From NCBI GenBank assembly GCA_963169325.1, contig CAUJEY010000157.1, forward strand, positions 1 through 41,410: a stretch of 41,410 bases of DNA, in the 5' to 3' direction. The notes below the pieces were generated by a model, which searched no databases, was not told the DNA's origin, and worked only from the letters and a program-made list of their open reading frames with translations. The stretch comes from Bacteroidota bacterium. GTDB taxonomy: Bacteria > Bacteroidota > Bacteroidia > Chitinophagales > Saprospiraceae. Shown here one piece after another: positions 8,215-41,350 of the stretch. The stretch's first letter is position 1. Each line of letters begins with the position of its first letter. The translations under genes and the position numbers were made by a program.

Positions 8215-8320
8215 AGTTTGAAGTTCGAAGTTTAAAGTTTAAAGTTCGAAGTTGCTCAAAATTTCCTGCGGAAACTTTCCTCGTTACTTCAAACTTTAAA
8301 CTTCGAACTTCAAACTTCAA
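8215..8320. repeat. Inverted heptamer array (AGTTYRA) between rpoZ and coaBC
   Basis: Six consecutive 7-bp units run from 8215 to 8256 (AGTTTGA, AGTTCGA, AGTTTAA, AGTTTAA, AGTTCGA, AGTTGCT). Five complementary units run from 8286 to 8320 (ACTTCAA, ACTTTAA, ACTTCGA, ACTTCAA, ACTTCAA). The two arms can pair over about 35 bp around a 29-bp centre. On the transcribed minus strand the array starts 9 bp after the rpoZ stop codon and ends 13 bp before the coaBC start codon. Confidence 0.9.
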
Positions 8321-8329
8321 ACGCCTCAA

Positions 8330-8662
8330 TTAGTCGCGTTCTTCTACATAGCGCCACTGAATTTCATCGTTCATGAATTCGTGGGCGGCTATGATCGCCG
8401 TGTTGGGCAGGCGTTCGTAAAATTTGGATATTTCGATTTGTTCTTTGTTTTCCTGCACCTCTTCAATGGTGTCGGAACTAACGGCAAACTCTTCCAGTTT
8501 GCGCTGGATTTCCCATTTCAAATCGCTGGAAATTTGACGGGCGCGCTTGCTGATGATGGCAATGCTTTCGTAAATATTGTCCGTTTTGTTCGCCAGTTCG
8601 CGCACGTCGCGGGGTTGAACATTGGGGTCGAGGCCCTGGGCCTTACTTTTGATATCGCTCAT
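8330..8662 (-). CDS. rpoZ: DNA-directed RNA polymerase omega subunit (Rpb6 family)
   Basis: A 110-residue protein with DNIYESIAIISKRARQIS, the Bacteroidota version of the Rpb6/omega core motif, in which the conserved alanine/lysine/arginine segment clamps the beta-prime C-terminus. The rest is acidic and helical, as in Bacteroidota omega proteins. Omega helps assemble RNA polymerase and takes part in ppGpp binding in some bacteria. The position between bamD and coaBC agrees with the usual gene order. The start at 8662 gives MSDIKSKAQGLDPNV. Its upstream region is entirely the 21-bp tandem repeat, and its downstream region is the inverted heptamer array. Confidence 0.88.
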   Translation of the reverse strand: MSDIKSKAQGLDPNVQPRDVRELANKTDNIYESIAIISKRARQISSDLKWEIQRKLEEFAVSSDTIEEVQENKEQIEISKFYERLPNTAIIAAHEFMNDEIQWRYVEERD

Positions 8663-8670
8663 CTATTTCT

Positions 8671-8836
8671 AATGATGAATTATGAATGATGAATTATAAA
8701 TGATGAATGATGAATTATAAATGATGAATGATGAATTATAAATGATGAATGATGAATTATAAATGATGAATGATGAATTATAAATGATGAATGATGCCGA
8801 GTAAGATTCATCATTTATAATTCATCATTCATCATT
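8671..8836. repeat. 21-bp tandem repeat with an inverted copy, between bamD and rpoZ
   Basis: Six copies of a 21-bp unit (AATGATGAATTATRAATGATG) occupy 8671-8796. After ten unrelated bases an inverted copy lies at 8807-8836. The unit is three 7-bp words. On the plus strand each unit contains ATG ATG followed by four sense codons and TAA. On the transcribed minus strand the inverted copy begins 3 bp after the bamD stop codon, and the array ends 8 bp before the rpoZ start codon. No gene is present. Confidence 0.92.
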
Positions 8837-8839
8837 AAA

Positions 8840-9664
8840 TTACGTCGTTTTAAACCGCTTAACCACAATTTTCAGTTGTTGTTCGGCGTCGCGGCGGATT
8901 TCTTTGATTTCTTTGGAATATTTCCCGCTCGGGTATTTTTCTAAAAAGTCGTTGCAACGGGTGATGGTTTCGGTGTAACGGTCGCGTTTTTTCTCCACCA
9001 CGCTGTTTTCGCTCAGCAGGAAGGCGGATTTGGCGATCAGGTAACGTACACGTTCCGCATCGGGGCTTTCAGGGTAGTCGCGCAGCAGGTTATCGAAGGA
9101 GATAACCGCCGATTGGTACTGCCGCAGGTTGAAGTACAGTTCGCCCTCGCCAAATGCTTTTTCTTCCAGTTTTCGCCGCAACGTATCGATTAGTTTATTG
9201 CACTCCGGTACCCGTTTGCTTTGGGGAAACAGGTTGACGAACAACTGAAATTCGTCGATAGCTTGCAGGGTGCTACCCTGGTCCAAACGAAATGTCGGCG
9301 ACAACAGGTAGTTGGAATATGCGGACAGATAAGCCGCTTCTTCCCGGAAAGGCGAACTGGTGAAGGTGTTGGAAAAGTTTTTGAAATAATACGCCGCGAG
9401 GGTGTATTGCTTGAGGTAGTAGTAAGTGTAGGCGTAATTGTAATAGGCTTGTTCCGCCCTTTTACCACCTTTAATCGTGTTCATCACGAGATCAAAAAGG
9501 GTTTGGGCTTTTTGATACTCTTCCTTTTCGTAATAGGCAAACGCCTTGTTCAGGATCAATTCCGGGTCGCCACTGATGCGGACGCGCTCGAACTCGCTTT
9601 TACAGGAAGGGAGCAGTAGCCACAACATGCCAGTGAACAGCAGCCAGCCGTACGTTTTTTTCAT
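8840..9664 (-). CDS. bamD: Outer-membrane assembly lipoprotein BamD
   Basis: A 274-residue lipoprotein of the BAM complex that inserts beta-barrels into the outer membrane together with BamA. The N-terminus MKKTYGWLLFTGML ends in the lipobox LLPSC, with the lipidated cysteine near residue 21. Tetratricopeptide-like helical repeats follow, for example NKAFAYYEKEEYQKAQTLFD, AYTYYYLKQYTLAAYYFKNF and GELYFNLRQYQSAVISFDNLL, ending in a basic C-terminus. The ATG at 9664 is preferred to an in-frame TTG at 9673 because the latter lies inside the predicted promoter. With that promoter the message would have little or no leader. Three TonB receptors and other barrels in the window are presumptive clients. 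Confidence 0.88.
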   Translation of the reverse strand: MKKTYGWLLFTGMLWLLLPSCKSEFERVRISGDPELILNKAFAYYEKEEYQKAQTLFDLVMNTIKGGKRAEQAYYNYAYTYYYLKQYTLAAYYFKNFSNTFTSSPFREEAAYLSAYSNYLLSPTFRLDQGSTLQAIDEFQLFVNLFPQSKRVPECNKLIDTLRRKLEEKAFGEGELYFNLRQYQSAVISFDNLLRDYPESPDAERVRYLIAKSAFLLSENSVVEKKRDRYTETITRCNDFLEKYPSGKYSKEIKEIRRDAEQQLKIVVKRFKTT

Positions 9665-9670
9665 AGGGCG

Positions 9671-9678
9671 CAAAGATA
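9671..9678 (-). promoter_or_regulatory. -7 element of the bamD promoter, possible leaderless transcript
   Basis: On the minus strand TATCTTTG matches the Bacteroidota -7 box TAnnTTTG. The A of the bamD ATG is the seventh base after the final G, where transcription would normally begin. No good -33 TTTG is present at the expected distance. Confidence 0.5.
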
Positions 9679-9791
9679 CGTTTTTTGTTCGGAAAAATAA
9701 CTATAGCGCTAAAGATGGGGCGCTAAATTACAAAGTGTAACCCAAAACGACGCTTGAACGGGAATAGTGGCGCGGCGGGCGGATTTTTTTT

Positions 9792-9835
9792 GACGGTGGA
9801 TTGGTGGGACGGTGGACGGTAGACGGTGGACGGGT
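9792..9835. repeat. Heptamer array GACGGTR
   Basis: Four adjacent units GACGGTG, GACGGTA, GACGGTG, GACGGGT occupy 9808-9835, preceded by a degenerate pair from 9792. The units are the reverse complement of the CCGTCYA heptamers at 21726-21795, so the two arrays belong to one dispersed family in opposite orientation. The array lies in the 580-bp gap between bamD and paaA. Confidence 0.8.
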
Positions 9836-9880
9836 ATGTCATTTTTCTGACGAAAAGCGCTAAACCCCATAGCCATCAGG

Positions 9881-10111
9881 TTAATACTACTTTGACCCGA
9901 TAAATCAGATGTCTCCTTTCAGTCGACATGACAGCTCGCGCGAGCGTAATTTTCCGTCGGATTTCTCTCCCGATAGCTCGGGATCGAAATTTACCGGGAA
10001 CGCTTTGAATATTTCGAGCGCAGCGAGAAATCCGACGGAAAATTTAAACCCAGATAGCTGTCATCCCGACCAAAGGGAGGGAACTGAACTAACGTGGCAA
10101 AGTAGTATTAA
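9881..10111. mobile_element. 231-bp nested inverted repeat, MITE-like
   Basis: The ends are perfect 14-bp inverted repeats, TTAATACTACTTTG (9881-9894) and CAAAGTAGTATTAA (10098-10111). Inside are matching arms ATGACAGCT (9928-9936) and AGCTGTCAT (10056-10064), then a 20-bp pair at 9948-9967 and 10025-10044 (centre CCGTCGGATTT / AAATCCGACGG). Two small local palindromes are at 9934-9945 (GCTCGCGCGAGC) and 9968-9983 (TCCCGA-TAGC-TCGGGA). Between 9904 and 9936 the two sides agree at about three quarters of positions. There is no coding capacity. The whole can fold as one long hairpin. TTAA at both ends could be a target duplication or simply the end of the repeat. It resembles a non-autonomous transposable element or a dispersed structured repeat; no transposase is in the window. 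Confidence 0.65.
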
Positions 10112-10179
10112 GGATTTTGGGGGTATTTTCCCTAATTTCCCCTAAACTTGATGGCTATGGCACTAAACCCTTTGTCCGG

Positions 10180-10210
10180 TTTGGCGTTTGATGGGAAAAG
10201 ATGACCTTTG
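10180..10210 (+). promoter_or_regulatory. Possible paaA promoter
   Basis: TTTG at 10180-10183 and GACCTTTG at 10203-10210 are 19 bp apart, close to TTTG-N19-21-TAnnTTTG with T changed to G at the first -7 position. Transcription would start about 30 bases before the paaA ATG. Confidence 0.4.
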
Positions 10211-10246
10211 CATCGTTTTCGTTTTTAACTTTTGGTACCGCATCTC

Positions 10247-11242
10247 ATGTCCAACCAGGAAAATAAAACCGCCACAGTTCACTCGCTCGAAGACCAGTTT
10301 CAAGCCAAAATAGACGCCGATATCCGCATTGAGCCGAAAGACTGGATGCCGGATTCGTACCGGAAAACGCTGGTACGCCAGATCAGCCAGCACGCCCACA
10401 GCGAGATCGTGGGTATGCTGCCCGAGGGCAATTGGATCACCCGCGCACCATCGCTCAAACGCAAGGCCATCCTCCTGGCCAAGGTGCAGGATGAAGCCGG
10501 CCACGGCCTGTATTTGTATTCTGCTGCCGAAACGCTGGGCGTCAGCCGCGACACGCTGGTAGAAGAATTGCACAGCGGCAAAGCCAAATACTCTTCCATT
10601 TTTAACTATCCTACCATCAGCTGGGCCGACATCGGCGCCATCGGCTGGCTGGTAGATGGAGCCGCTATTCTGAATCAGATTCCCATTTGCCGCTGTTCTT
10701 ACGGGCCGTATGCCCGCGCCATGGTGCGGGTGTGTAAAGAAGAAAGTTTCCACCAGCGCCAGGGTTTCGAAATCCTGCTTACCCTCTCGAAAGGCTCGCC
10801 CGAACAACGCGCTATGGCCCAGGACGCCATCAACCGCTGGTACTGGCCCTCCGTAATGATGTTCGGCCCCTCCGACGACGCTTCGCCCAACAGCGCCCAA
10901 AGTATGCAGTGGAAAATCAAACGTTTCAGCAACGACGAACTGCGCCAACGTTTTGTGGATATGATCGCCGAACAGGTGAAAGTGCTGGGCCTGGAAGTGC
11001 CCGATCCCGACCTGAAATGGAACGAAGAACGCGGCCACTACGACTTCGGCGCCATCAACTGGGACGAATTTTGGAACGTGGTGAAAGGCAACGGCCCCTG
11101 CAACCGGCAGCGCCTGCGCACCCGCGTACAAGCCTGGGCAGAAGGCGCCTGGGTGCGCGACGCGGCGGTGGCCTATGCAGAGAAGAAGGCGAAGCGGGAA
11201 GCCCGGGCGCAAGATGCCGGTGAAGAAATGATAGCGGCTTAG
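10247..11242 (+). CDS. paaA: 1,2-phenylacetyl-CoA epoxidase catalytic subunit PaaA
   Basis: A 331-residue di-iron oxygenase subunit that epoxidises the aromatic ring of phenylacetyl-CoA, the first ring-attacking step of phenylacetate breakdown. The ferritin-like ligands are visible: glutamate at about 53, the first ExxH as EAGH at 83-86, an aspartate in WLVDGAA near 137, and the second ExxH as ESFH at 166-169 within [10 protein letters not shown]. These segments are nearly identical to those of known PaaA proteins, so the gene looks intact. ATG at 10247 ([11 protein letters not shown]) is preferred to an in-frame TTG at 10232. PaaA normally works with PaaB, PaaC and the reductase PaaE encoded alongside, but none of these is here: a MITE-like repeat lies upstream, and palindromes and an unrelated gene lie downstream. 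The partners must be elsewhere or missing. Confidence 0.93.
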
Positions 11243-11268
11243 GACTGCTTTACCACGGTAACTTTTTT

Positions 11269-11450
11269 AGCACACTATTGGACATTTTCAATTTTAACAC
11301 ATAGATCACATAGGTTTTAAACTTTTGAAAATCAAAAAACTATGTGGCCTATGTGCCTATGTGTTTAGAAATATCCAGCAGTGTGCTGTTTTAGTCTTTT
11401 TTTAAAACCACAAAGTCCACATTAGTTTTTCTTTGTGCACTTTGTGGTTT
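11269..11450. repeat. Nested palindromes downstream of paaA
   Basis: AGCACACT (11269-11276) pairs with AGTGTGCT (11380-11387) and encloses ACATAG-type units (ACACATAG, ATCACATAG near 11297-11314) facing repeated CCTATGTG-type units (11341-11364). A second inverted repeat follows, AAACCACAAAGT (11405-11416) with ACTTTGTGGTTT (11439-11450). The block begins 27 bp after the paaA stop and could act as its 3' end. No gene is present between 11243 and 11511. Confidence 0.8.
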
Positions 11451-11511
11451 ATAATTAGAAAACGAGGCATCGCAAAAGGGACACGCTGAATCTACCCGCA
11501 AAACGAAGCCC

Positions 11512-18024: not shown

Positions 18025-20703
18025 TTAACACCCCAGTTTCACCCGCGATTCTTCCAACATCTCTATCCGCGCCAATGCATCCGCCTGTTTTTTACGTTCG
18101 TTTTCCACCACTTCGGCGGGCGCTCCACTGACAAAACGTTCATTGGAGAGTTTGGCCTCCACACTTTTCAGGAAGCCGCGCTGGTGCTCCAGTTCCTGTT
18201 TGACCCGCGCACATTCGGCTGCTATATCAATTTTCTGTTCAAATTCGACGTAGTATTTTCCCGTGCCGGAAACGAAAGACTTGTTGTTGGCCGGTTCGGT
18301 ATCGATCAGTTCGAGGGGCGATAAAACGGCCAATTTCACGATCATTTCCTGCAAGCCTGCGAGCGCAAACAGCGCCTGAGCCGAGTCGCTGTTTTGAACC
18401 GACATTTTCAGTTCTTCGCGCGGCTTGATCTGGTTCTGGTTGCGCAGGTCGCGCACTTTAGTGATCACATCTTTGGCGGTTTCCACCTGGCGGATAAACG
18501 CCTCGTCGGGTGTTTCTGCTTTAGGATATTGCTGCATCATACAATCATCGCCGGTCTGGCGTTCGCGCAGCTGGTGCCATAGCTCCTCCGTGATAAACGG
18601 CATGAAAGGGTGCAGGGCCACCATCAGGTCGGAGTAAAGATCAAGCGTGGCTTCATAAGTAGCCCGGTCGATGGGTTTTTCATAGCCGGGTTTGACCATT
18701 TCGAGGTACCAGGAACAAAAGTCGTCCCAGATCAGCGCGTATATCGAAAGCAACGCTTCGCTCAAGCGGAAAGATTGAAAATTTGAGTCTACCTCTCCCA
18801 GCGTTTTGTTGAGTTTTTCGCGCATCCAACGCACGGCCAAGGCGTTTTTGCGCGCTTCAGTCTCGTTTTCAGGTTGATCAACCACCTGCCAGCCTTTCAC
18901 GAGGCGCAGGGCGTTCCAGAGTTTGTTGCAGAAGTTGCGTCCGTTTTCACACAGTTTGTCGTCGAAGAGAATATCGCCGCCGGCGGCTGCGCTCGACATC
19001 AGGCCGTAGCGGACCCCATCGGCGCCGAAGTCATCGATCAGTTTGAGCGCATCGGGCGAATTGCCGAGCGATTTAGACATTTTGCGCCGTTGTTTGTCGC
19101 GCACCATGCCGGTAAAATAGACGGCCTGGAACGGACGCTGCCCCATGTATTCGTATCCGGCCATGATCATGCGGGCGACCCAGAAGAAAATAATGTCCCA
19201 ACCGGTCACCAGTACCGCCGTCGGGTAATAATATTTCACCTCACCCTCCGGTTGGCTGAATCCGTCGAATACGCTGATGGGCCAGAGCCAGGAAGAGGCC
19301 CAGGTGTCGAGCACATCTTCGTCCTGCCGCAGGTCGGCGATGGTCAGTTGGTTGTTGCCGGTTGCCGCGCGGGCTTGTTTCAGGGCTTGTTCGGCCGATT
19401 CGGCGACAAAAATGTGGGTTTCTTTGTTGAACGCATCCGCTTTCAGGTACCAGGCGGGTATTTGTTGCCCCCACCACAATTGGCGCGACACGCACCAGTC
19501 GCGCAGGTTTTCCATCCAGTTGCGGTACAGATTTTGAAAATTGTCGGGGTAAAACTGCACTTCCCGGTCCAGCACGGCTTGCAGCGCCGGTGCGCCCAGG
19601 TCGCCCATACGCACAAACCACTGGAGCGACAATTTGGGTTCCACCACTGAATTGGTGCGCTCCGAACGGCCGATTTTGGTGCGGTAATCTTCCGTTTTAA
19701 TCAGGTGGCCGCTTTCCTCCAGCGCCGGTTTCATGCGTTTGCGCGCTTCGAAACGGTCGAGCCCGACGATGGGCTGATAGGTGCATTGCGTATTCAGTTT
19801 GCCGTCGTCGTCGATCGTGTCGATGACCGGCAGGTTGAAGCGCTGGCCGATTTCATAGTCGTTCGGGTCGTGGGCCGGCGTGATTTTCAGGGCGCCCGTA
19901 CCGAATTCAATGTCAACATAGTCGTCGGCAATTACCGGGATTGGGCGGTCGATCAGGGGCACCAGCACGTTTTTGCCTACCAGGTGCTGATAGCGCGGGT
20001 CTTTCGGGTGAACGGCTACCGCCACGTCGGCAAAAATCGTTTCCGGGCGCTGGGTAGCGATCACAATCCCCTCACTATCCGAACCTTCCAGGAAATATTT
20101 GATATGAAAAAGTTGGGCTTGTTCTTCGTTGTACAGCACCTCTTCGTTGGACAGCACCGTATGGGCTTCCGGGTCCCAGTTCACCATACGCAGACCGCGG
20201 TATAGTTTGCCTTTGCCATATAAATCCACGAATACGCGGATGACGTCGGCGTAATAGCCGGGATCCATGGTAAATGCCGTGCGGTCCCAATCGCAGGAAG
20301 CGCCGAGGCGGCGGAGTTGTTGCAGGATGATGCCGCCGTATTTTTCCTTCCATTGGTAGGCATACGCCATAAATTGCTCGCGGGTGAGGTCGGCTTTGCG
20401 CAGTTTTTTTTCCTCGCGCAGCCAATGTACCACCTTGGCTTCCGTGGCGATGGAGGCGTGGTCGGTGCCCGGTACCCAGCAGGCATTTTTGCCGTCGAGG
20501 CGGGCTTTTCGGATCAGGATATCCTGGATCGTATTATTCAACATGTGGCCCATGTGCAACACGCCGGTTACGTTGGGCGGCGGGATCACAATGGTGAAAG
20601 GCTCGCGTTCGTCGGGGATGGAGCGGAAGTAGCCGGATTTTTCCCAGTGTTCGTACCATCGGGTTTCCGTATCGGCGGGGTTGTAGCGGGTAGACAGTTC
20701 CAT
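18025..20703 (-). CDS. valS: Valyl-tRNA synthetase
   Basis: An 892-residue class I synthetase that charges tRNA-Val and edits mischarged threonine. The HIGH signature appears as HMGH at residues 50-53 in PPPNVTGVLHMGH, and KMSKS is exact at 541-545. The editing (CP1) domain covers about 190-350 (TQRPETIFADVAVAVHP), the anticodon-binding helical domain about 610-780, and the C-terminal coiled-coil arm about 825-892 (EQKIDIAAECARVKQELEHQ). Length is typical for a Bacteroidota ValS. A strong promoter match lies 86-115 bp upstream. The leader contains a heptamer array (20715-20742) belonging to the same family as that at the window end. Confidence 0.97.
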   Translation of the reverse strand: MELSTRYNPADTETRWYEHWEKSGYFRSIPDEREPFTIVIPPPNVTGVLHMGHMLNNTIQDILIRKARLDGKNACWVPGTDHASIATEAKVVHWLREEKKLRKADLTREQFMAYAYQWKEKYGGIILQQLRRLGASCDWDRTAFTMDPGYYADVIRVFVDLYGKGKLYRGLRMVNWDPEAHTVLSNEEVLYNEEQAQLFHIKYFLEGSDSEGIVIATQRPETIFADVAVAVHPKDPRYQHLVGKNVLVPLIDRPIPVIADDYVDIEFGTGALKITPAHDPNDYEIGQRFNLPVIDTIDDDGKLNTQCTYQPIVGLDRFEARKRMKPALEESGHLIKTEDYRTKIGRSERTNSVVEPKLSLQWFVRMGDLGAPALQAVLDREVQFYPDNFQNLYRNWMENLRDWCVSRQLWWGQQIPAWYLKADAFNKETHIFVAESAEQALKQARAATGNNQLTIADLRQDEDVLDTWASSWLWPISVFDGFSQPEGEVKYYYPTAVLVTGWDIIFFWVARMIMAGYEYMGQRPFQAVYFTGMVRDKQRRKMSKSLGNSPDALKLIDDFGADGVRYGLMSSAAAGGDILFDDKLCENGRNFCNKLWNALRLVKGWQVVDQPENETEARKNALAVRWMREKLNKTLGEVDSNFQSFRLSEALLSIYALIWDDFCSWYLEMVKPGYEKPIDRATYEATLDLYSDLMVALHPFMPFITEELWHQLRERQTGDDCMMQQYPKAETPDEAFIRQVETAKDVITKVRDLRNQNQIKPREELKMSVQNSDSAQALFALAGLQEMIVKLAVLSPLELIDTEPANNKSFVSGTGKYYVEFEQKIDIAAECARVKQELEHQRGFLKSVEAKLSNERFVSGAPAEVVENERKKQADALARIEMLEESRVKLGC

Positions 20704-20714: not shown

Positions 20715-20742
20715 AGGTTTGAAGGTTTCTGGTTTGATGGTT
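20715..20742. repeat. Heptamer array in the valS leader
   Basis: Four 7-bp words, AGGTTTG, AAGGTTT, CTGGTTT, GATGGTT, run from 20715 to 20742. They resemble the GGTTTGA/GGTTTCT words of the large array at 41085-41340. This array lies 12 bp upstream of the valS start codon, within the predicted message leader, unlike most arrays in the window, which follow stop codons. Confidence 0.7.
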
Positions 20743-21696: not shown

Positions 21697-21725
21697 ACCG
21701 TCTTCTCCCGAAGCCTCGGTATCCC

Positions 21726-21795
21726 CCGTCCACCGTCCCCCGTCAACCGTCTACCGTCTACCGTCCACCGTCCCCCGTCTACCGTCCCCCGTCTA
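21726..21795. repeat. Ten-copy heptamer array CCGTCNN between convergent genes
   Basis: Ten consecutive 7-bp units each begin CCGTC and end CA, CC, AA or TA, filling 21726-21795 exactly. The last unit, CCGTCTA (21789-21795), supplies the stop codon of the minus-strand OmpA gene (CTA read as TAG). Related units in the opposite orientation lie at 9792-9835. Confidence 0.95.
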
Positions 21796-23592
21796 ATACA
21801 TCCGGACCAACCCAAACTCCACCCTTCTGTTTTTTGCTTTACCGTCTGCGGTTTTATTCGTGGCAATCGGCTTGCGTTCGCCGAAGCCTTTGGCGGTCAG
21901 TCGTTCCGCCTCAATGCCCAGTTCCACTAATTTTTCCACACAGCGGTCGGCCCGGCGTTCGGACAGGGCCAGATTTTTCTTATCGGCGCCCTGGCTGTCG
22001 GTATGGCCGGCAATGTCAACCTTGTAATTCGGGTAACCTTTCAGTATTTCGGCCAGTTGTTCGATCACCGGGACGGACTGGGCAGTCAGGTTGTCGGAGC
22101 CGGTTTCAAACTGGATATTACGCACGGCCGTGGCAATCAGTTTTTTATCTTCTTTTTTCAGTTCCGGACAACCCTTATTGGCCAACGTGCCGGCAGCGGT
22201 GGGACACTTGTCGAGGGCGTCTTCTATCCCGTCGCCGTCGGTGTCGGGGCAACCCTGGAATTTTTCGAGCCCTTTGGCCAGCGGGCAACGATCCAGCGAA
22301 TCGGTAATGCCGTCGTTATCGGAGTCGGGGCAGCCGTCGAAGCGGGCGAGGCCCTTCGCCAGCGGACATTTATCGAGGGCATCTTCTATGCCGTCGCCAT
22401 CGGTATCGGGGCAGCCGAGAAACTGTATGGGGCCTGCCTGATACGGGCAGAAATCAACCCGGTCGTCCAGCCCATCGCCATCGCGGTCGGGGCAGCCGCC
22501 GGTGGCCATAAGGCCCGCCATATCCGGGCATTCATCGTCGCGGTCGGCCAGGCCATCGTGGTCGCGGTCGGGGCAGCCGAGGAGGAATACGGTGCCGGAA
22601 TCGCGTGGACAGGCATCTTCGATATCCGGTACGGAGTCGCCGTCGGTGTCGGGGCAGCCGCATTGTGCGGGGAGCCCGATCAGGCCAAGGCAAAGGTCGA
22701 GGCTGTCGCGGGTGCCATCGCCGTCTTCATCGGGGCAGCCCCGGGCGGAGGGTACGCCCGGCTGCTCGGGGCAGTCGTCTTCGGCGTCAGTGATGCGGTC
22801 GCCGTCGGCGTCGGGGCAGCCTTTCATGGCCGGGAATCCGGGCGAGAGGGGGCATTTATCTTTGCGGTTTGGAATCCAGTCGCGGTCGGTATCCACTTCC
22901 CGGATACGGTGCGTGAGGGTAATGCCACCGAAGGCATACCAGTCGCGGTTATCGGGATTGCCGGAAACGGCCACGCCGTCCAGCAGGTCGGTAAAAGCCG
23001 GCCGGAAGCCCGCTTCGAAGCCGATCAGCCAGTACCGGCCGATATCCCATTTGAAGCCGCCGCCGATATGAAGCACCGGAGCCGGCTGGTCGGCGTCCCG
23101 GTTTTTGTCGGCCGATATCCGGAGTTCCGGCACGCTAGGATTCTGTTCCGGAAAGTCGTTATAATTTGTAGTGGGATTGAAAAAGTTGTACCCGGCGCCG
23201 GCAAACAGGTAAGGGCTGAATATTTTGCGGAAACGCCAGCCATTGCGCCGGCGTCGGCCGAAAATATCCCATTCGAGCGAGAGGCTAGCTTCGTGAAAGG
23301 TGGTGGAAAATTGAAACGCGCGTTCTTTTCGCCAATCCGGCTCCGCGAAATATGATTCGTCGCCGGATATTCTGCCGCCCAGGTAGTTGAAGCGGAATGC
23401 CCAGGCTGGGCCGAGGTGACGCCGGACCAGGAATCCCAGGCCAAGGTCGTTATTTTGTAAATCGTAAAACCGTTTGGCATTCACGTCGCCGGCATACGCC
23501 GTCACGCCGCCGGACACGCCGATTTCCCAGGTCGCCTGTGCACGTAGCAAAATAGGGGTCAACAGAAGGCAAATAAACCCGATTACTTTCAT
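21793..23592 (-). CDS. OmpA family protein with TSP3 calcium repeats and N-terminal barrel
   Basis: A 599-residue outer-membrane protein. A signal peptide (1-19) is followed by a small beta-barrel region (about 20-232) of the type found in Bacteroidota OmpA proteins (TAYAGDVNAKRFYDLQ at its start). Nine thrombospondin type 3 repeats, DxDxDGxxDxxDxCP, cover about 234-470 and should bind calcium in a stiff rod. The OmpA C-terminal peptidoglycan-binding domain covers about 492-599, with NIQFETGSDNL, the diaminopimelate-binding HTDSQGADKKNLALSERRA region and NRRVEF. It links the outer membrane to the cell wall. Its stop codon TAG is formed by the last unit of the heptamer array. No clear promoter was found. 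Confidence 0.92.
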   Translation of the reverse strand: MKVIGFICLLLTPILLRAQATWEIGVSGGVTAYAGDVNAKRFYDLQNNDLGLGFLVRRHLGPAWAFRFNYLGGRISGDESYFAEPDWRKERAFQFSTTFHEASLSLEWDIFGRRRRNGWRFRKIFSPYLFAGAGYNFFNPTTNYNDFPEQNPSVPELRISADKNRDADQPAPVLHIGGGFKWDIGRYWLIGFEAGFRPAFTDLLDGVAVSGNPDNRDWYAFGGITLTHRIREVDTDRDWIPNRKDKCPLSPGFPAMKGCPDADGDRITDAEDDCPEQPGVPSARGCPDEDGDGTRDSLDLCLGLIGLPAQCGCPDTDGDSVPDIEDACPRDSGTVFLLGCPDRDHDGLADRDDECPDMAGLMATGGCPDRDGDGLDDRVDFCPYQAGPIQFLGCPDTDGDGIEDALDKCPLAKGLARFDGCPDSDNDGITDSLDRCPLAKGLEKFQGCPDTDGDGIEDALDKCPTAAGTLANKGCPELKKEDKKLIATAVRNIQFETGSDNLTAQSVPVIEQLAEILKGYPNYKVDIAGHTDSQGADKKNLALSERRADRCVEKLVELGIEAERLTAKGFGERKPIATNKTADGKAKNRRVEFGLVRMY

Positions 23593-28526: not shown

Positions 28527-29057
28527 TTGAAAAAATATCTCGGCATACTCCTTTTAGTCGCTGTTACGGCGCCCTTTCCCGGCACGTACGCCTGGTTGTA
28601 TTTTCAAAAATATCAAACCAAAAAGGAGATCAAAAGGCAGATGATCGCCGGTTTAGATAAATCGGAACTGGTATTGTTAAAATTGACCAAACAGGCAGCC
28701 GAAACCGAACTGCACTGGGAGCACAGCGGGGAATTTGAGTACAATGGGCAGATGTACGACGTGGTGGAGCAGTTTGCGGTAAACGATACCATTTATTACC
28801 GGTGCTGGTGGGATCATGCCGAAACCGGTTTAAATAAAAAACTGGATCAACTGCTGGCAAGCGCCCTGGAGCGGGATCCGAAACACCGCGAAACCGAACG
28901 GCAATTGGTGTATTTTTTCAAAAGCCTTTATTTTTCAGAAATACCGCCCTGGTATTTCGGCGCTATTTCGGAGCGCATGATTCAGCCTCTCGCTGATTTT
29001 TTCTGCTATGCCTGTGTAAACAGCGCACCACTTTCCCCTCCTCCTGAATGGAGTTAA
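28527..29057 (+). CDS. Unknown membrane-anchored protein
   Basis: A 176-residue protein not recognised. From the TTG at 28527 it begins MKKYLGILLLVAVTAPFPG, one N-terminal membrane helix, followed by a basic stretch (KYQTKKEIKRQ) and a soluble part. An alternative TTG at 28494 adds eleven residues. Similar short Bacteroidota proteins with one helix and the pattern KLTKxxxxxELxWxHxxEFxYxGxMYDVV exist as hypothetical proteins, often in pairs. Here WEHSGEFEYNGQMYDVVEQ is seen, so I think it belongs to that group. It follows the beta-barrel gene by 75 bp. An array of 49-bp repeats begins about 10-30 bp after its stop. Confidence 0.55.
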   Translation: MKKYLGILLLVAVTAPFPGTYAWLYFQKYQTKKEIKRQMIAGLDKSELVLLKLTKQAAETELHWEHSGEFEYNGQMYDVVEQFAVNDTIYYRCWWDHAETGLNKKLDQLLASALERDPKHRETERQLVYFFKSLYFSEIPPWYFGAISERMIQPLADFFCYACVNSAPLSPPPEWS

Positions 29058-29067: not shown

Positions 29068-29380
29068 TTTCACGCAAAGTCAGCGGTTATTTCACGCAAA
29101 GTCGCAAAGCCGCAAAGTGAGAGGGGCTAAACGTATTATTTCACACAAAGACGCAAAGTCGCAAAGTGAGAGGGGCTAAACGTATTATTTCACGCAAAGT
29201 CGCAAAGACGCAAAGTGAGAGGGGACTACGTATTTTTTCACGCAAAGACCCAAAGTGAGAGGGGGCTAATGTATTATTTCACGCAAAGACGACGCCTAAC
29301 GCTTCGCGCCCCTCTCACTTTGCGTCTTTGCGACTTTGCATGAAATAATACGTTTAGCCCTCGATGACTTTGCGAGAAAT
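29068..29380. repeat. Array of 49-bp repeats built from heptamers, with inverted end
   Basis: Direct copies of a unit with TTTCACGCAAAG, one to three CGCAAAG heptamers, TGAGAGGGGCTAAA and CGTATTA start near 29090, 29139, 29188 and 29236, about 49 bp apart. A partial copy at 29068 precedes them and a truncated copy near 29277 follows. An inverted copy (CCCCTCTCACTTTGCG ... GAAATAATACGTTTAGCC) occupies about 29308-29359. The 49-bp unit equals seven 7-bp words. The array begins about 11 bp after the stop codon at 29057. The gap to the next gene at 29452 contains nothing else clear; GGAGG at 29414-29418 is too far from the ATG to be its ribosome site. Confidence 0.9.
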
Positions 29381-34660: not shown

Positions 34661-35532
34661 AGACCTTCTTTCCCTTGTTTCTGATTTTGTTTCTCCTGGG
34701 TTGTGGCGGAAACCAACCGGCTACACCTTCACCGGATACAGCCGGATCGCCTCCCCCTGCCGAGTCCGGCGAAGGCGCCGTGGAAACACCGGCAAAAGCC
34801 GGTCACCCTATTTTGGGCAGTTATGTCGGCCTCTTTGAGGCCAAAACTTACAATGCCAACCAGAATATCTCTTGGAGCAATAAAATCACTGTTTTTCTGG
34901 ATTCAATTACCGGGGATCAACTTTTCGGCCACAGTGTAGTGGCCGGCAATGCCCGGCCTTTTATCGGTACGCTGCGCAAACAAGGCGATCAATTCGTCGC
35001 TGAAGGAAGCGAACCGGGCGATGATCAATACGACGGTCGGTTTGCCATGACCATCGACGCCGGCGGAAAAACGATAAACGGCACCTGGCGCGCCAATAAA
35101 AAACTGGGCGTCTCGGAGCGCCAATACTCCCTGACGCGTCGCAGTTTCCGCTACGACCCCAACCTGGAATTGCCCGAAGAAACGGGCTGGGCCGACCTGT
35201 ACAACAGCTACGACGAAAAGACCGGCAAAGCGGAGTTTTTGACCGCAGACGTCACCAAGTACAACGCCTCTACCCGCCTGCTGAAAAAAGAAGAGGTGGA
35301 AAATATGTACAAATCCGACTTGGAAGTGATCCGTAACACCATTTATGCCCGCCACGGATATTCTTTTAAAAACCGCCGGATGCGTTACATTTTTGATGGT
35401 TATGTCGATTGGTACATGCCCGTATCCGTGGATATCCGAGATCAACTCACCGCCGTAGAAAAGCAAAATGTCGAGCTGCTGAAGCGGTACGAACAACATG
35501 CGGCGCGGTATTATGACGAGTTTGGAAGGTAG
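34657..35532 (+). CDS. YARHG-domain lipoprotein
   Basis: A 291-residue lipoprotein. The signal ends in the lipobox FLLGC (Cys about residue 16), followed by a proline-rich linker (about 20-48). A beta domain (about 50-155) contains GSYVGLFEAKTYNANQNISWSNKITV and repeated GKTINGTW-type strands. The C-terminal YARHG domain (about 215-290) shows the motif in EVIRNTIYARHGYSFKNRRMRYIF. This domain is thought to act outside the cytoplasm, but its function is unknown. It overlaps the DUF2306 gene by 4 bp, so SRPBCC, DUF2306 and this gene form one operon. Repeat arrays follow directly. Confidence 0.85.
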   Translation: MKTFFPLFLILFLLGCGGNQPATPSPDTAGSPPPAESGEGAVETPAKAGHPILGSYVGLFEAKTYNANQNISWSNKITVFLDSITGDQLFGHSVVAGNARPFIGTLRKQGDQFVAEGSEPGDDQYDGRFAMTIDAGGKTINGTWRANKKLGVSERQYSLTRRSFRYDPNLELPEETGWADLYNSYDEKTGKAEFLTADVTKYNASTRLLKKEEVENMYKSDLEVIRNTIYARHGYSFKNRRMRYIFDGYVDWYMPVSVDIRDQLTAVEKQNVELLKRYEQHAARYYDEFGR

Positions 35533-35540
35533 GTTCGGCA

Positions 35541-35610
35541 TTGGGCGTCATTGGGCGTCATTGATCGTCATTGATCGTCATTGATCGTCATTGGGCGTCA
35601 TTGGGCGTCC
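35541..35610. repeat. Seven-copy 10-bp tandem array
   Basis: Seven units of ten bases occupy 35541-35610, in the order TTGGGCGTCA twice, TTGATCGTCA three times, then TTGGGCGTCA-type twice. The arrangement of the variants is symmetric. The array begins 9 bp after the stop codon of the YARHG lipoprotein. Confidence 0.93.
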
Positions 35611-35628: not shown

Positions 35629-35670
35629 AAATCGTAAGTCGTAAATCGTAAGTCGTAAATCGTAAATCGT
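35629..35670. repeat. Six-copy heptamer array before the flippase start
   Basis: Six units alternate AAATCGT and AAGTCGT from 35629 to 35670 without gaps. The flippase start codon GTG at 35674 is only 3 bp beyond the end, so the ribosome-binding region consists of the array. Confidence 0.93.
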
Positions 35671-35673: not shown

Positions 35674-36948
35674 GTGTTAACCCGCGCCCTTCAATTCTAC
35701 CAGCTCCTGCGTCTCGGTTCGGTGATCGGCGCCAGTATTTTGCTGGCCAAAAGTGGTTTGAGCCTGGCGGATATCGGCGCCTACGAGGCCCTCTTGTATA
35801 TCGGCAGTGCGGCGGCGTTTTTTTGGGCCAACGGCTTGTTGCAGGGTATTCCATCGGTGTACGCCCGAATGGCGGAGCTGGAACGGAAGGCGTTTATTTT
35901 CAATAAATTTTTTGTTTTTGGAGTCATTTCTTTCCTGATTTGCCTCGTTTTGTGGTTGGGCCGGCAATGGGTAATGCCCGCGCTGACGGGTCTCCCGGTG
36001 GCGCCGTATTTCGGCTGGTTTTGCGCTTACCTGTTTTTCAACTTAGCCACCCTGCCGGTAGAATACCTGTACCTGTTGCGCGAAAAACCCTGGGCACTGG
36101 TCGGGTGGGGCGGGCTATCGTTCGGGATGTACATGCTCGTGTTGTTTCTGCCGGTGTACCTCGGTTACGGACTGGAAGGCGGCCTGATGGGACTGGCCGC
36201 GCTGGGTGCGCTGCGTTTTTTATGGGCCGTAATATTAGTGGTCCGGCTTGGAACACCGGTTTTTCGGCCCGATTTGATCGGCTATTACCTGCGGTTTTCG
36301 GCGCCGCTTGTGCTGAATTTTATGGTCGGCAACCTGGTGTTGTTGTTCGACAACTGGCTGGTGGGCTGGTATTTTCGCGACGAAACGGTGTTTGCCGTAT
36401 TCCGCTACGGCTCGCGGGAGTTTCCGTTGGCTACGGCATTAGCCACCGCCCTTGGCACGGCTATGATCGCCCGCATCGCCACCCAGCCGGAGGCCGGGCT
36501 GGCGGAATTGAAGCGTCAAACCCGGCGCTTGTTTCACCTGCTTTTTCCGCTGACGATATTGTTGCTTTTTTTATCGAAACCCTTGTTCCCGCTGGTGTTC
36601 AACCCTGCGTTTGCCGACAGCGCGCCGTTGTTCAATATCTACTTGTTGCTTACCGCCAGCCGGGTGTTGTTGCCCAATTCGATCATCCTGGCCAAAGGCC
36701 GGCCGCGGGCGATCCTGCTGGTGGGGTTGCTGGAACTGGTGGTAAAAGTGGTCCTCGGTTTTTGGTTTATCCATTGGTGGGGCCTACCCGGTGTGGCCTG
36801 GTCGGCAGTGGCTGCGTTTTTTGTGGAAAAAGCGGGCCTGATCTGGTATTTAGAAAAACGGCTGGATGTCCGGACCGGGGATTGGCTGGATTGGCGGTGG
36901 TACGCGGGATATGTGGCGGCGTTGTTTTTGGCTGGGTTGATAGCATAA
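35674..36948 (+). CDS. Polysaccharide flippase (MOP/MATE superfamily)
   Basis: A 424-residue integral membrane protein with about 12 hydrophobic helices and the layout of Wzx-type flippases (LRLGSVIGASILLAKSGLSLADIGAYEAL at the start, DNWLVGWYF in the middle). Such proteins move lipid-linked sugar units across the inner membrane. The start is GTG at 35674, giving MLTRALQFYQLLRLG; no ATG is near in frame. No glycosyltransferase or other polysaccharide gene is adjacent, so its substrate is unknown. It is convergent with the EEP gene, 75 bp apart, without a clear terminator. Confidence 0.85.
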   Translation: MLTRALQFYQLLRLGSVIGASILLAKSGLSLADIGAYEALLYIGSAAAFFWANGLLQGIPSVYARMAELERKAFIFNKFFVFGVISFLICLVLWLGRQWVMPALTGLPVAPYFGWFCAYLFFNLATLPVEYLYLLREKPWALVGWGGLSFGMYMLVLFLPVYLGYGLEGGLMGLAALGALRFLWAVILVVRLGTPVFRPDLIGYYLRFSAPLVLNFMVGNLVLLFDNWLVGWYFRDETVFAVFRYGSREFPLATALATALGTAMIARIATQPEAGLAELKRQTRRLFHLLFPLTILLLFLSKPLFPLVFNPAFADSAPLFNIYLLLTASRVLLPNSIILAKGRPRAILLVGLLELVVKVVLGFWFIHWWGLPGVAWSAVAAFFVEKAGLIWYLEKRLDVRTGDWLDWRWYAGYVAALFLAGLIA

Positions 36949-38064: not shown

Positions 38065-38096
38065 AATTCCAGACATTAGAAGGGTGTTAGAAAGGG

Positions 38097-38128: not shown

Positions 38129-38130
38129 TC

Positions 38131-38155: not shown

Positions 38156-38317
38156 ATCAGACGCTTTGCAATTAATTTACATTGGATATTAACCTACGGA
38201 CAACCGGGCTTTGCTACCTTTACGCGCTTTTTTAAAGTCTTGCCCCCTCCGTTGTTTTTATTGTGATTCCATTTCGGTAACCAATACAATCACACCCATC
38301 TTTATCTATTTCTCTGA

Positions 38318-41077
38318 ATGATTCAAAAACTAGTTTTTTCCAGCTTGCTGCTCCTGCTCGTGCAGGCGGCGGGGGCACAAAAGGCAACGATCCGCGGCGC
38401 CGTGACGGATGCGGAAAACAATGCACCCGTGGTTGACGCCACCGTGGTGCTGGCGCAAACGGGTATTTTTGCCGCCACCGACAGCCGGGGCAAATTCGTC
38501 CTGTACGATGTGCCCGCCGGCGACTACACCCTGGTGGTGACGCGCGCCGGCTTTTTACCCCTCGAACAAAAAGCCGGGGTAAAGGCCGATCAGGAACTGA
38601 ACCTGTCCGTCGTCCTGACCCGCGATCCCGCTGCCGTTACCACAAATTCGGGCGATATACCGACCATCACGCTCGAAGAAGCCGATGCCGACGACGAGGG
38701 CGCCAGCGACATCGGCGGCTTGCTGAATGCTTCCCGGGACGTTTTTCAGAACGTATCCAATTTCGGCTGGTTTGTCTTCCGCTTTCGCGAACGGGGCTAC
38801 GACGGCGACAACTTCCCGGTATTTCTGAATGGAATCAACATCAACGACCCGGAAACAGGTAATGCGTTTTTCGGCGAGTTCGGCGGCCTCAATGACGTAC
38901 TGCGCAACCGGGAAAGCTCGGTCGGCCTGAACCCGGCAGACTATGCCTTCACTGAACTCGGCGGCGCAACAAATATCGACACCCGGGCCGGCACTCAGCG
39001 CAAACAAATCCGCGCTTCCTACGCCGTCAGCAACCGCAGCTACCGCAACCGCGTGATGCTCACCGCCAGCACCGGCCTTATGCCGGGCGGTTGGGCTATT
39101 TCCGTTTCGGGCAGCCGGCGATGGGCACAGGAAGGCTGGTACGAAGGCACTTTTTTTGATGGATACTCGTACTTTTTGTCGGTCGACAAAAAAATCGGAA
39201 CCAAACACAGCCTGAACTTTACCCTTCTGGGCGCTCCCAACAGCCGCGGCCGCAACGGCGACACCTTCCAGGAAATGTACGACCTGGCCGGCACTACCCG
39301 GTACAACCCCAACTGGGGCTACTGGAACGGCGAAAAACGAAACGGCTACGTCAGCCACAGCCACCAGCCTTTCGGCATTCTCCGCTACGACTGGAAACCG
39401 GGCGAGGGCACAAGTGTCCAAATTGCAGCGTATGGACAGGCCGGCGAAAACGGCTCCACACGCCTCGACTGGTTCAACGGCTACAGCCCCGAACCGGACT
39501 ACAACCGCCGCCTGCCCTCTGCCCTACCCGACCCCGCTATGGCCGATGCCTGGGCACAGGAATTGCGCGACAACGAGTCGCTCCGCCAAATCAACTGGGC
39601 AGGCTTGTGGGAGGCCAACACCATCAATACTGAAACGATCCACAATGCCAATGGCGTTGCGGGTAATTCCGTGACCGGAAAACGGTCGCAATACGTCATC
39701 GCCGATTTCCGCAGCGACAGTAAAGAAGGCGGTTTCAATGCCTTGCTGCGCCAATCCCTAAGCAATCGGTTCGCCCTCACCGGCGGCGCCAATTACCAGC
39801 ATTATCTGGGGCGAAATTTCAAAACCGTAGACGATATTCTGGGCGGCGATTTTATCGTCGACTGGGACCGCTTCGCCCAGCAAGACCAGCCTGCCAACCC
39901 AACCGCGCGCGACAACGACCTGCGAACGCCCAATCACATTGTACGGGAAGGCGAAACGTACGGCTACGATTATGATGAAAATATCCGCAAAGCAGGCATG
40001 TGGCTCCAGGTACGCGGCGACTTGCGCAAATTTTCCCTTTTTGCCGCCGCCGAAAATATGTTCACCCAATTCTGGCGTACGGGCCACATGCAAAACGGCC
40101 GCTTCCCCAACACCTCGCTGGGCGATTCGAAAAAACAGACCTTCAATACTTACGGACTGAAGGCCGGTGTTACCTACAAACTTACTGGCCGCCATTTCCT
40201 GTATGCCAACGGTTTCGTCGGTACGCGAGCGCCGCTTTTCCGCGACTTGTTCCTCTCGCCGCGTATCCGCAACCAGACGCTGGAAAATGCCGATCCGTAT
40301 AAAATTTCCAGTATCGAAGGCGGCTATCAGTGGCGCGCACCGCGTTACCGGGCCCGGCTGACCGGATATTTCACCCAGTTCAAAGGCGAATACGACAACT
40401 TTCTACTCTATGTGCCCAGTCAGGGCGTTTTTGGATCGGTGCTGCAATCGGGCATCGACCGCGAACATGCAGGCGTCGAGTTTGCCATCGAAGCAAAACC
40501 CATCGTCGGATGGACGTTCAGCGCGGCCACCAACCTGGGGCGCTATATCTACACGTCGCGCCCAAAACTGTTCCTGACACTGGATAATACCGCCGAAGCT
40601 ATCCTGGACGGCGTGACTGTTTACCAGAAAAACTTCTACGTTCCGCGTACGCCCCAAACAACGGCCACGGTAGGCGTGAAATATGAAAGCCGGCGCTTTT
40701 GGTTCGCGTCCCTGTCTGCCAACTATGCTGATAACTTTTGGTATTTGTTCGACGCCACCCGCCGCACTGCAGGTTTCGTGGAACCCTTCGAACGAGGCTC
40801 CGAATTGTGGCGGCTAATTATCGATCAACAAAAAGCCCCGGCAGCAGTAACGGTCGACTTTTTCGGCGGCAAATCCTGGCGCATCAAACAGAAATACTTC
40901 GTTTACCTGAATGTGGGCGTCAACAATATTTTAAACAACCTGAACATCGTCACTTCCGGGCGCGATGCCTACCGCAACGCCTACCGCAACGACCTGACCG
41001 ATGTCCGGCTTTATTCCAGTCAACTCAACTACGCGCAGGGCGCCAACTATTTTATCAGTCTGTCCCTGCGGATATGA
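38318..41077 (+). CDS. TonB-dependent receptor with carboxypeptidase-like N-terminal domain
   Basis: A 919-residue outer-membrane receptor. A signal peptide (1-20) is followed by a CarboxypepD_reg-like domain (about 23-105, ATIRGAVTDAENNAPVVDATVVL ... VPAGDYTLVVTRAGF). The plug is about 120-235 and has FVFRFRERGYDGDNFPVFLNGININDPETGNAFFGEFGGLNDVLR and GGATNIDTRAG. The remainder is a long barrel ending NYFISLSLRI. No adjacent SusD-type lipoprotein is seen, so it is not a SusCD pair in this window. Being divergent from the EEP protein, it may import nucleotides, DNA fragments or organophosphate released by that enzyme; this is inference from context. The gene is complete and is followed 6 bp later by repeat arrays. 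Confidence 0.88.
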   Translation: MIQKLVFSSLLLLLVQAAGAQKATIRGAVTDAENNAPVVDATVVLAQTGIFAATDSRGKFVLYDVPAGDYTLVVTRAGFLPLEQKAGVKADQELNLSVVLTRDPAAVTTNSGDIPTITLEEADADDEGASDIGGLLNASRDVFQNVSNFGWFVFRFRERGYDGDNFPVFLNGININDPETGNAFFGEFGGLNDVLRNRESSVGLNPADYAFTELGGATNIDTRAGTQRKQIRASYAVSNRSYRNRVMLTASTGLMPGGWAISVSGSRRWAQEGWYEGTFFDGYSYFLSVDKKIGTKHSLNFTLLGAPNSRGRNGDTFQEMYDLAGTTRYNPNWGYWNGEKRNGYVSHSHQPFGILRYDWKPGEGTSVQIAAYGQAGENGSTRLDWFNGYSPEPDYNRRLPSALPDPAMADAWAQELRDNESLRQINWAGLWEANTINTETIHNANGVAGNSVTGKRSQYVIADFRSDSKEGGFNALLRQSLSNRFALTGGANYQHYLGRNFKTVDDILGGDFIVDWDRFAQQDQPANPTARDNDLRTPNHIVREGETYGYDYDENIRKAGMWLQVRGDLRKFSLFAAAENMFTQFWRTGHMQNGRFPNTSLGDSKKQTFNTYGLKAGVTYKLTGRHFLYANGFVGTRAPLFRDLFLSPRIRNQTLENADPYKISSIEGGYQWRAPRYRARLTGYFTQFKGEYDNFLLYVPSQGVFGSVLQSGIDREHAGVEFAIEAKPIVGWTFSAATNLGRYIYTSRPKLFLTLDNTAEAILDGVTVYQKNFYVPRTPQTTATVGVKYESRRFWFASLSANYADNFWYLFDATRRTAGFVEPFERGSELWRLIIDQQKAPAAVTVDFFGGKSWRIKQKYFVYLNVGVNNILNNLNIVTSGRDAYRNAYRNDLTDVRLYSSQLNYAQGANYFISLSLRI

Positions 41078-41082
41078 TTTTA

Positions 41083-41350
41083 AAGGTTTCTGGTTTGGGG
41101 GTTGGGGGTTTGGAGGTTTGGGGGTTTGGAGGTTTAGAGGTTTGAAGGTTCCTGGTTTGAAGGTTAGACGGTTTCTGGTTGGCATAACCCTCAAACCAGA
41201 AACCTTCAAACCAGAAACCCTCAAACCAGAAACCCCTAAACCAGAAACCCTCAAACCAGAAACCCTCAAACCAGAAACCCTCAAACCAGAAACCCCTAAA
41301 CCAGAAACCTCCAAACCCCCAAACCTCCAAACCCCCCCAACCCCCCCACC
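41083..41350. repeat. Large inverted heptamer array at the window end
   Basis: The left arm (41083-41181) contains words such as GGTTTCT, GGTTTGG, GGTTTGA and AGGTTCC. The right arm (about 41186-41350) contains the complementary AAACCAG, AAACCCT, CAAACCA, TCAAACC words, many in a 14-bp (2 x 7) alternation such as AAACCCTCAAACCAG. Both strands stay open for more than 100 codons because the array has few stops; those frames are not genes. The array begins 6 bp after the receptor stop codon. From 41351 to the end the sequence becomes C-rich and then A-rich (A run at 41392-41406), with nothing further seen. Confidence 0.9.

Follow-up and report, generated by a model that had tools for sequence, protein, structure and literature searches.

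Contig C157 of a Bacteroidota genome, the window of 41,410 bases analysed here at its full length, carries tandem arrays of short units in the gaps between its genes. Analysis of this window, of further stretches of the host genome and of other bacteria showed that in the host many short-repeat families are indeed linked to gene ends, with strong statistical support. The arrays have units mostly of 7–10 bp, they are anchored behind stop codons, and their G-rich strand begins at the adjacent gene and reads into the gap, at starts and stops alike; families differ at one orthologous locus, copy number and content change between relatives, and most hairpin loops are private to their locus. The best reading, to which we give a probability of roughly 0.47, is that slippage and template switching generate arrays that survive behind genes, which would explain the unit length, the turnover, the private loops and the stop anchoring, while the polarity needs an added asymmetry.

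The host genome comprises 8.07 Mb in 349 contigs. The host sample consisted of 80 stretches plus the window (81 sequences, 1.22 Mb, about 15% of the genome): 24 came from contigs with AATGATG matches, one was the window, and 56 formed a systematic subset (706 kb) picked independently of repeat matches. A home-made model called 796 host genes (85% coding), and a plain longest open reading frame (ORF) rule was used for other genomes. Arrays were scanned at lags 2–30 over the host sample with a first-order Markov sequence as the control, and those of the window were located with Tandem Repeats Finder (TRF) and by direct reading of the sequence at seven places. Array rows overlapping a gene by at least half, or by 30%, depending on the analysis, were excluded before counting; 47 of the 267 host arrays had no assignment to a gap between two called genes, and polarity counts exclude zero-skew and near-central arrays. 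Contig ends fall inside arrays at host contigs C39, C87, C263, C287 and C329; it is therefore probable that arrays interrupt the assembly and that their number is underestimated.

A total of 267 intergenic tandem arrays were found in the 1.22 Mb, with periods of 7 (89 arrays), 8 (32), 9 (10), 10 (13), 14 (22), 15 (22), 16 (15), 21 (19) and 23 (10). Periods 2 and 4 were represented by one array each, periods 3, 5, 6 and 11–13 by none in the 81 sequences, and the Markov control produced no array at any period scanned. Heptamers made up 89 of the 144 arrays with periods 7–10 (control 0), and the systematic subset gave 35, 18, 7 and 8 arrays at periods 7, 8, 9 and 10. Given these counts and the lack of arrays at 5, 6 and 11–13, 7 is the mode of a 7–10 class in which other unit lengths exist too; many of the longer periods (14, 15, 16, 21, 23) look like sums of shorter units. 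An even spread of periods over 5–12 bp, named in the preliminary description of this DNA as the outcome that would speak against it, was absent. Multiples of 7 as a rule were rejected, and the periods 49 and 28 look coincidental.

The placement of most arrays just after stop codons, as originally described, was borne out against random placement. Where a tandem gap offered 100 bp or more of free DNA, 30 of 81 arrays lay within 16 bp of a stop, where 5.6 were expected and the maximum in 1000 random placements was 15, and 8 of 81 lay within 16 bp of a start (5.4 expected). The corresponding counts in the systematic subset were 14/39 (2.7 expected) and 3/39 (2.6 expected). Convergent gaps had 38 of 48 arrays within 16 bp of a stop (17.9 expected), and array positions in the host form a spike 0–9 bp behind stops. 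Start edges are not quite neutral, as 39 of 145 arrays in tandem gaps of all sizes (26.4 expected, random maximum 39) and 9 of 25 in divergent gaps (3.4 expected, random maximum 9) were within 16 bp of a start. Gaps of at least 60 bp contained an array in 30/72 cases when convergent, 96/303 when tandem and 19/109 when divergent. Hairpins without arrays, in roomy tandem cases, were near a stop in 7 of 36 cases (2.3 expected) and near a start in one. Stop codons as the sole anchor proved an incomplete account: in short gaps the second arm extends to the next start codon, and the strand polarity had been missed. Stop-edge distances were negative in 37 of 243 cases, where the ORF end falls inside the array; many G-rich arrays contain stop codons.

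The polarity was obeyed by 116 of the 125 skewed arrays that lay within 20 bp of an edge and clearly nearer to that edge (131 arrays with the six of zero skew included). By gap type the ratios were 72:8 (tandem), 34:1 (convergent) and 10:0 (divergent), and when gaps were counted (n = 113), 91 agreed, 10 disagreed and 12 did neither. The total of unit families depends on the rule applied (28 clusters, 17 of them single arrays, by one rule; 24 merged families by another); 20 of the 24 merged families lean outward from the gene and 2 the opposite way. Inverted pairs in the host were arranged '><' in 35 cases and '<>' in none, six having a zero-skew member. The G-first arm outnumbered the C-first arm 60:5 in array hairpins, as opposed to 40:36 in non-array hairpins, which makes the polarity a property of arrays, not of hairpins. 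On the same counts hairpin formation was rejected as its cause; it is also countered by cyanobacterial TAACTGA arrays, which obey the polarity though most array pairs among the matches listed are non-inverted. Stop-codon content was rejected as well, since the lean was 63:43 in the host and the opposite, 34:68, in cyanobacteria. Cyanobacteria are not known to have Rho, and Rho sites were set aside for that reason.

Every window array listed in the preliminary description exists, having been recovered by TRF, and palindromes are present at 11269, 17397, 31869 and 32527. The arrays and hairpins of the window are as follows.

142–245, + strand: hairpin with a 28-bp palindromic tandem unit (156–231), behind the TAA stop at 139–141; predicted fold −61.0 kcal/mol.
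8215–8253, + strand: left arm made of a 7-bp array (AGTTTGA/AGTTCGA/AGTTTAA); the coaBC-like gene 6988–8202 (−) starts 12 bp away.
8286–8322, + strand: right arm with the inverted copy (ACTTCAA), which follows the stop of the rpoZ-like gene 8330–8662 (−) at 7 bp.
8671–8796, + strand: left arm, 7-bp AATGATG/AATTATA family arranged as super-units of 21 bp; the rpoZ start is 8 bp away.
8806–8836, + strand: right arm, an inverted array (ATTCATC) that follows the stop of the bamD-like gene 8840–9664 (−) at 3 bp.
9792–9833, + strand: 7-bp array GACGGTG inside the divergent gap 9665–10246.
20716–20742, + strand: weak array of 7/8-bp units (the GGTTT family) that obeys the polarity; it lies outside gene 18025–20703 (−), 12 bp from the start.
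21722–21795, + strand: CCACCGT/CTACCGT array (7 bp) of a convergent gap; it overlaps the stop of gene 21793–23592 (−).
29087–29291, + strand: left arm of a large hairpin (fold −146.9 kcal/mol), with 8-bp units (CGCAAAGT) that form a super-unit of 49 bp; the preceding stop is at 29057.
29308–29353, + strand: inverted right arm to the 29087–29291 array, from TRF and the fold.
35539–35609, + strand: array of the 10-bp unit GTCATTGGGC; the stop at 35532 precedes it by 6 bp.
35629–35670, + strand: 7-bp array AAATCGT, of a family differing from the 35539 array; the called GTG start at 35674 follows after 3 bp.
41092–41180, + strand: left arm built of the 7/8-bp GGTTTGGG family; the stop at 41077 precedes it by 14 bp.
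41186–41361, + strand: right arm, inverted AACCCTCAAACCAGA (15 = 7+8) and AAACCCCC units; fold −136.0 kcal/mol.

That all of them use 7 bp or a multiple, as had been claimed, did not hold: the array at 29087–29291 consists of 8-mers, 41092–41361 mixes 7- and 8-mers, 35539–35609 is a 10-mer, and for the non-heptameric 156–231 TRF gives period 28 only. The 10-bp array had been called an exception (at 35541), correctly as to its period; it obeys the stop rule, and it is the neighbouring heptamer array at 35629 that adjoins a start instead. The G-rich strand (ACGGTGG) of 21722–21795 points away from gene 21793–23592 (−), and its gap (21697–21792) folds to merely −7.0 kcal/mol, without a hairpin. 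Protein matches of window genes are to YfiO/BamD, an Rpb6/RpoZ-like protein, a CoaBC-like flavoprotein, DUF4835 and DUF6089/OmpA, a set that would be consistent with Bacteroidota. An 81-bp tandem repeat at 22202–22417 is part of a coding region; the encoded protein has an OmpA domain and thrombospondin type 3 repeats.

Array content differs even between close relatives. At the rpoZ locus, compared by eye in 23 same-genus genomes (the downstream gene being other than coaBC in some relatives, e.g. L095, L100 and L102), the two gaps differ in family, or hold other hairpins, or nothing; the families seen there were AATGATG, AGTTTGA, GGTTGGA, ACGGTGG-like, AACAAAC, CGGTAGA and GGTTGATGA. Between genomes G007 and G009 (95.6% identity, 88 kb aligned), copy number differs while the flanks are kept, or an unrelated hairpin replaces the array. 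In each of six Microcystis genomes, again read by eye, the array next to one particular ORF end opens with AATTATG units, and the units further inward differ between genomes; the called stop there falls inside the array. Of the 66 gaps with two or more arrays, 48 had the same family (14 expected), inverted in 43, and a single above-threshold array was present in 83 of 149 host array gaps. Loops could be compared for 33 of 41 inverted pairs (at least 14 nt; the other eight were too short) and most were private to their locus: one locus pair had the whole core in common, and two other pairs shared 16–19 nt (E 0.005–0.009).

Arrays outside the host were obtained from a contig collection (genome_contigs) scanned for one degenerate heptamer, which gave at least 114 loci, a set selected for a single pattern whose taxa were grouped from record titles. 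Within 30 bp of an ORF edge the polarity was 107:14 in the host and 33:3 in its genus (longest-ORF genes), and among the matches listed for the collection, to which the following counts also refer, 67:25 in Cyanobacteria and 23:3 in other Bacteroidota. GC skew did not support the polarity in the small samples of Parabeggiatoa (0:2) and other phyla (4:4, or 4:6 with Parabeggiatoa); despite this null, AGT led ACT 11:1 in other phyla. The best dinucleotide predictors across all sets were AG versus CT (238:23) and GT versus AC (243:37). The TAACTGA family has zero GC skew; of its 43 cyanobacterial cases, 42 have the CAGTTA strand starting at the ORF (stops 20/21, starts 22/22), as do 4/4 from Bacteroidota and 7/8 elsewhere; the unit occurred in 0 of 179 host and 0 of 64 genus arrays. 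Cyanobacterial array pairs comprised 54 of unrelated families versus 3 inverted. Of the 54, 31 were '><', 4 '<>' and 19 otherwise arranged; unrelated pairs more than 40 bp from ORF edges were unbiased (5 '><', 4 '<>', 4 '>>', 5 '<<' and 4 with a zero-skew member), and the one inverted pair at such a distance was '><'. A similar rule in other bacteria hints at a shared way of making or tolerating arrays.

Within the host's genus, array density in 22 sampled genomes ranged from 0 (11 genomes, 4 to 40 kb each) up to 39 per 100 kb, each value being based on 4 to 200 kb, mostly one or two stretches. Three consecutive AATGATG units (AATGATGx3) turned up in 7 of the 16 same-genus genomes that were searched in their entirety, with counts of exact (overlapping) matches from 9 to 335; the other nine, and eight genomes of other families, had none. 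The reversed control had no match in any of the 24. The presence of array-rich and apparently array-free species within one genus means that a genetic cause should be findable by comparative genomics.

Three explanations had been offered at the outset, namely mRNA 3'-end structure, slippage or copying, and landing sites of an element; the second fits best and the other two were weakened. We propose that the arrays may form a genome-wide, quickly turning-over population of the long-simple-sequence-repeat kind, with short units of 7–10 bp, which would arise and change through DNA-synthesis errors, that is, whole-unit slippage and template switching. The latter could copy an array into an inverted second arm or a new site, such ectopic copying being the probable route of spread, and a dedicated enzyme would be unnecessary for array formation. 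Arrays would last where they are least harmful, in the free DNA right behind stops, would fill short gaps up to the next start, and would more rarely sit in promoter (divergent) gaps; the polarity may represent strand-asymmetric growth or survival, or selection against the opposite orientation. Unit lengths that begin sharply at 7, with none at 5–6, argue for slippage, as do the copy-number differences with kept flanks, the family differences at the rpoZ locus and the Microcystis ORF end, the inverted same-family pairs, the mostly unshared loops and the patchy occurrence of AATGATGx3 in the genus.

Several observations weigh against slippage and survival as the whole explanation. Plain slippage predicts zero polarity, and what was observed is the agreement of 116/125 arrays, 20/24 families and 42/43 cyanobacterial TAACTGA cases (among the matches listed). 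Host arrays that lack a partner arm followed the polarity less closely, with ratios of 15:3 at starts and 16:9 at stops when those up to 30 bp from an edge were counted. Arms were only slightly more similar to their own partner than to foreign arms of the same family (own partner best in 9/33, mean rank 0.36 versus 0.5). Growth at one end would leave a gradient of unit decay along arrays, and none was seen in the host (17 versus 17), the genus (3 versus 4) or the listed matches from genome_contigs loci (24 versus 25); the inner side held more of the decayed unit-like sequence in the host (27:12), but neither in the genus (5:7) nor in the listed genome_contigs matches (27:29). Shared cores in some families, moreover, point to a mobile unit there.

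Such cores lead to the alternative that survives best, in which arrays are the ends of non-autonomous mobile elements, similar to repetitive extragenic palindromic (REP) sequences or miniature inverted-repeat transposable elements (MITEs), moved by a Y1 transposase (IS200/REP-associated tyrosine transposase, RAYT). In the GATTACATGATTTAAG family, a 58-bp core is 96% identical at L019:13515 and L057:679, and to judge from this sequence the family looks like a true mobile hairpin; the inner palindrome TAGAGGGGACC is common to three array gaps (L012:18655, L034:5492, L058:14579) and GGGCGACCACGAGGGTCGCCC to two (L067:12536, L074:1871). A composite unit of a GGGTGTA array, a TTTTCTCAGTGA core and an ACTGATA array has many matches per genome in six Microcystis genomes, as evidenced in Microcystis viridis at L190:455–597, 1130–1250 and 7011–7177, and at one site a module is present in G043 and missing in G045 (by eye). 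The shared cores and this dispersed unit make whole-element movement likely for a minority of families; no target-site duplication was evident at the few comparable empty sites, read by eye. An interior shared between copies, as in MITEs, was lacking overall (one whole core among 33 loops) and was found in that minority. Element landing sites are weakened because most loops are private, though a few families share inner cores, and the AATGATG hairpins compared with one another (four, and a fifth whose second arm differs) do not agree in their loops. Y1_Tnp matches occurred in all seven same-genus genomes with AATGATGx3, and the four genomes without Y1_Tnp also had no AATGATGx3; however, five of the nine genomes without the repeat have Y1_Tnp too, so the enzyme appears compatible with arrays yet nonspecific. 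As an account of the arrays in general, mobile ends of this kind are rather unlikely.

It is also unlikely that the arrays are selected mRNA 3'-end hairpins, with inverted arms behind a stop forming a stem that protects or terminates the transcript. The spike behind stops, the order convergent > tandem > divergent, the 43 inverted same-family pairs and the stop preference of non-array hairpins (7/36) would all fit, as would the predicted folds of 6 of 7 window gaps (−38 kcal/mol or lower, calculated without a shuffled control), and transcripts of Xanthomonas citri are reported to start or stop more frequently at repeats forming G-quadruplexes than at control repeats (PMC4692102). Cyanobacterial arms, however, seldom match (3 inverted versus 54 unrelated pairs among the matches listed, 31 of the latter '><'), and non-array hairpins are unpolar, both of which weaken this explanation. 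The window gap at 21697–21792 scarcely folds, the rpoZ–coaBC gap has an array in the host and none in some sister species with the same neighbour (by eye), 11 of the 22 sampled same-genus genomes had no array (4 to 40 kb each), and the single above-threshold array of 83/149 host gaps is equally hard to accommodate.

A telomerase-like reverse transcriptase (RT) that writes G-rich repeats on broken 3' ends at gene borders, the ends then being joined as G-arm/C-arm pairs, would account for the polarity, the mixed families per gap and the G/T-rich strand, and a bacterial RT that writes tandem repeats, DRT10, is described in a preprint (PMC12632851). Nevertheless, RVT_1 had no match in five AATGATGx3-bearing genomes, G005 (98% complete), G006 (95%), G008 (99%), G010 (82%) and G015 (77%), and Ku was missing from 16 of 16 same-genus genomes tested; the RVT_1 and Ku searches left out the array-rich G016 and G021. 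The RVT_1 proteins of the host were two group II intron maturases, a type XIII retron RT (L303, host C341) and a second, retron-like RT (L304, host C344). The two maturases scored 166 and 147 bits with the UG17 profile versus 261 and 268 with the generic RT profile, and no UG17-class RT was found in array-bearing genomes searched via RVT_1, the UG17 profile itself not having been run across genomes. The RVT_1-free AATGATG genomes, the classes of host RT and the lack of Ku argue against an RT writer with end joining, which is poorly supported and, in our estimation, highly improbable. Loss of SbcD was dropped as a cause because there are too few genomes to judge: canonical SbcD exceeded the cut-off in only 3 of 16 same-genus genomes (G004, G008 and G012, with 0, 1.7 and 0 arrays per 100 kb), and in the array-bearing G014 it did so once neighbouring frame pieces were summed.

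That the arrays are chance repeats or gene-calling artefacts is scarcely credible, for although the home-made caller, the longest-ORF rule elsewhere and the stops inside G-rich arrays (37/243) might favour it, the Markov and reversed controls were zero and the stop-codon-free cyanobacterial CAGTTAT arrays still agree with the polarity in 20/21 cases near stops among the matches listed.

A broader proposition, which we regard as distinctly improbable, is that at least two phyla share a strand-asymmetric writing of 7–10 nt units outward from gene ends, with the G/T-rich strand first, telomere-like without telomerase, and shaping intergenic DNA genome-wide.

Known systems resemble the host arrays in part. 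The short tandemly repeated repetitive (STRR) sequences of cyanobacteria comprise several degenerate heptamer families scattered in one genome; their unit sequences and phylum differ from those of the host, and gene-end anchoring and polarity are not known to belong to the STRR definition. REP sequences and bacterial interspersed mosaic elements with RAYT transposases are conserved palindromic intergenic repeats near gene ends, and like them the host elements are palindromic and near gene ends, but the host unit is a tandem array whose loops are mostly private. The literature searched includes STRR fingerprinting of cyanobacteria and the heptanucleotides of Calothrix.

In Xanthomonas and Nostoc, one G-rich GGGNATC heptamer family, with four units as the preferred number, is located close behind stop codons and follows a strand rule (Rehm 2015, PMC4692102). 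Those repeats and the host arrays are alike in being intergenic heptamers, under-represented between divergent ORFs and sometimes in inverted pairs, near a stop on the sense strand or before a start on the antisense strand; nearness to the 5'-neighbouring ORF regardless of orientation also describes the host arrays (116/125; gaps 91 versus 10). The Rehm-type unit, however, forms G-quadruplexes and belongs to one family, whereas the commonest host units (AAGTTTG, AATGATG, AGTTTTG) have no GGG tracts, with a G-rich minority (GGGGGTTT, AGGTTTGG), and the host has about 24 unit families, sister species differing at the one locus examined. Heptamer arrays have been reported in some Bacteroidetes (MacGregor 2015, PMC4679880). 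The TAACTGA repeats of that report are likewise intergenic heptamers, oriented relative to starts; they form one family, which in Maribeggiatoa is mostly before starts and was interpreted as possible translational sites, whereas the unit is missing from the host and genus arrays tested and obeys the polarity at stops too in the cyanobacterial loci among the matches listed. Units of 5–11 nt, with 7 commonest in most genomes, were surveyed by Mrazek (2007), and 7 nt has been related to the polymerase-bound segment (both via PMC4679880 and PMC4692102). Host arrays share that 7-nt mode, far above chance; a placement or strand rule is not among the features of long simple sequence repeats described in those passages.

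The earlier assertion that no system described in Bacteroidota ties heptamer families to gene ends has to be narrowed accordingly, in view of the Bacteroidetes heptamers (PMC4679880) and the Xanthomonas/Nostoc strand rule (PMC4692102); what stands is the rule across many families, no placement or polarity rule of that breadth having been found in the literature searched, mainly open-access. Heptamer arrays have so far been described per family, each with its own guessed function (G-quadruplex control, translational sites). Since the rule is common to most of the ~24 host families, the cyanobacterial TAACTGA arrays among the matches listed and the published Xanthomonas family, one common cause is suggested over family-specific functions.

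Two minor observations concern single loci. The array at L009:11573–11642 has plant-telomere-like TTTAGGG units. In L080:4812–5600, from host contig C317, a Y1_Tnp (RAYT/IS200-like) match at C317:5239–5580 lies directly behind a gap in which a 25-bp tandem repeat accompanies a heptamer array and a REP-like hairpin (CGCCCTTTCAGGGC...GCCCTGAAAGGGCG).

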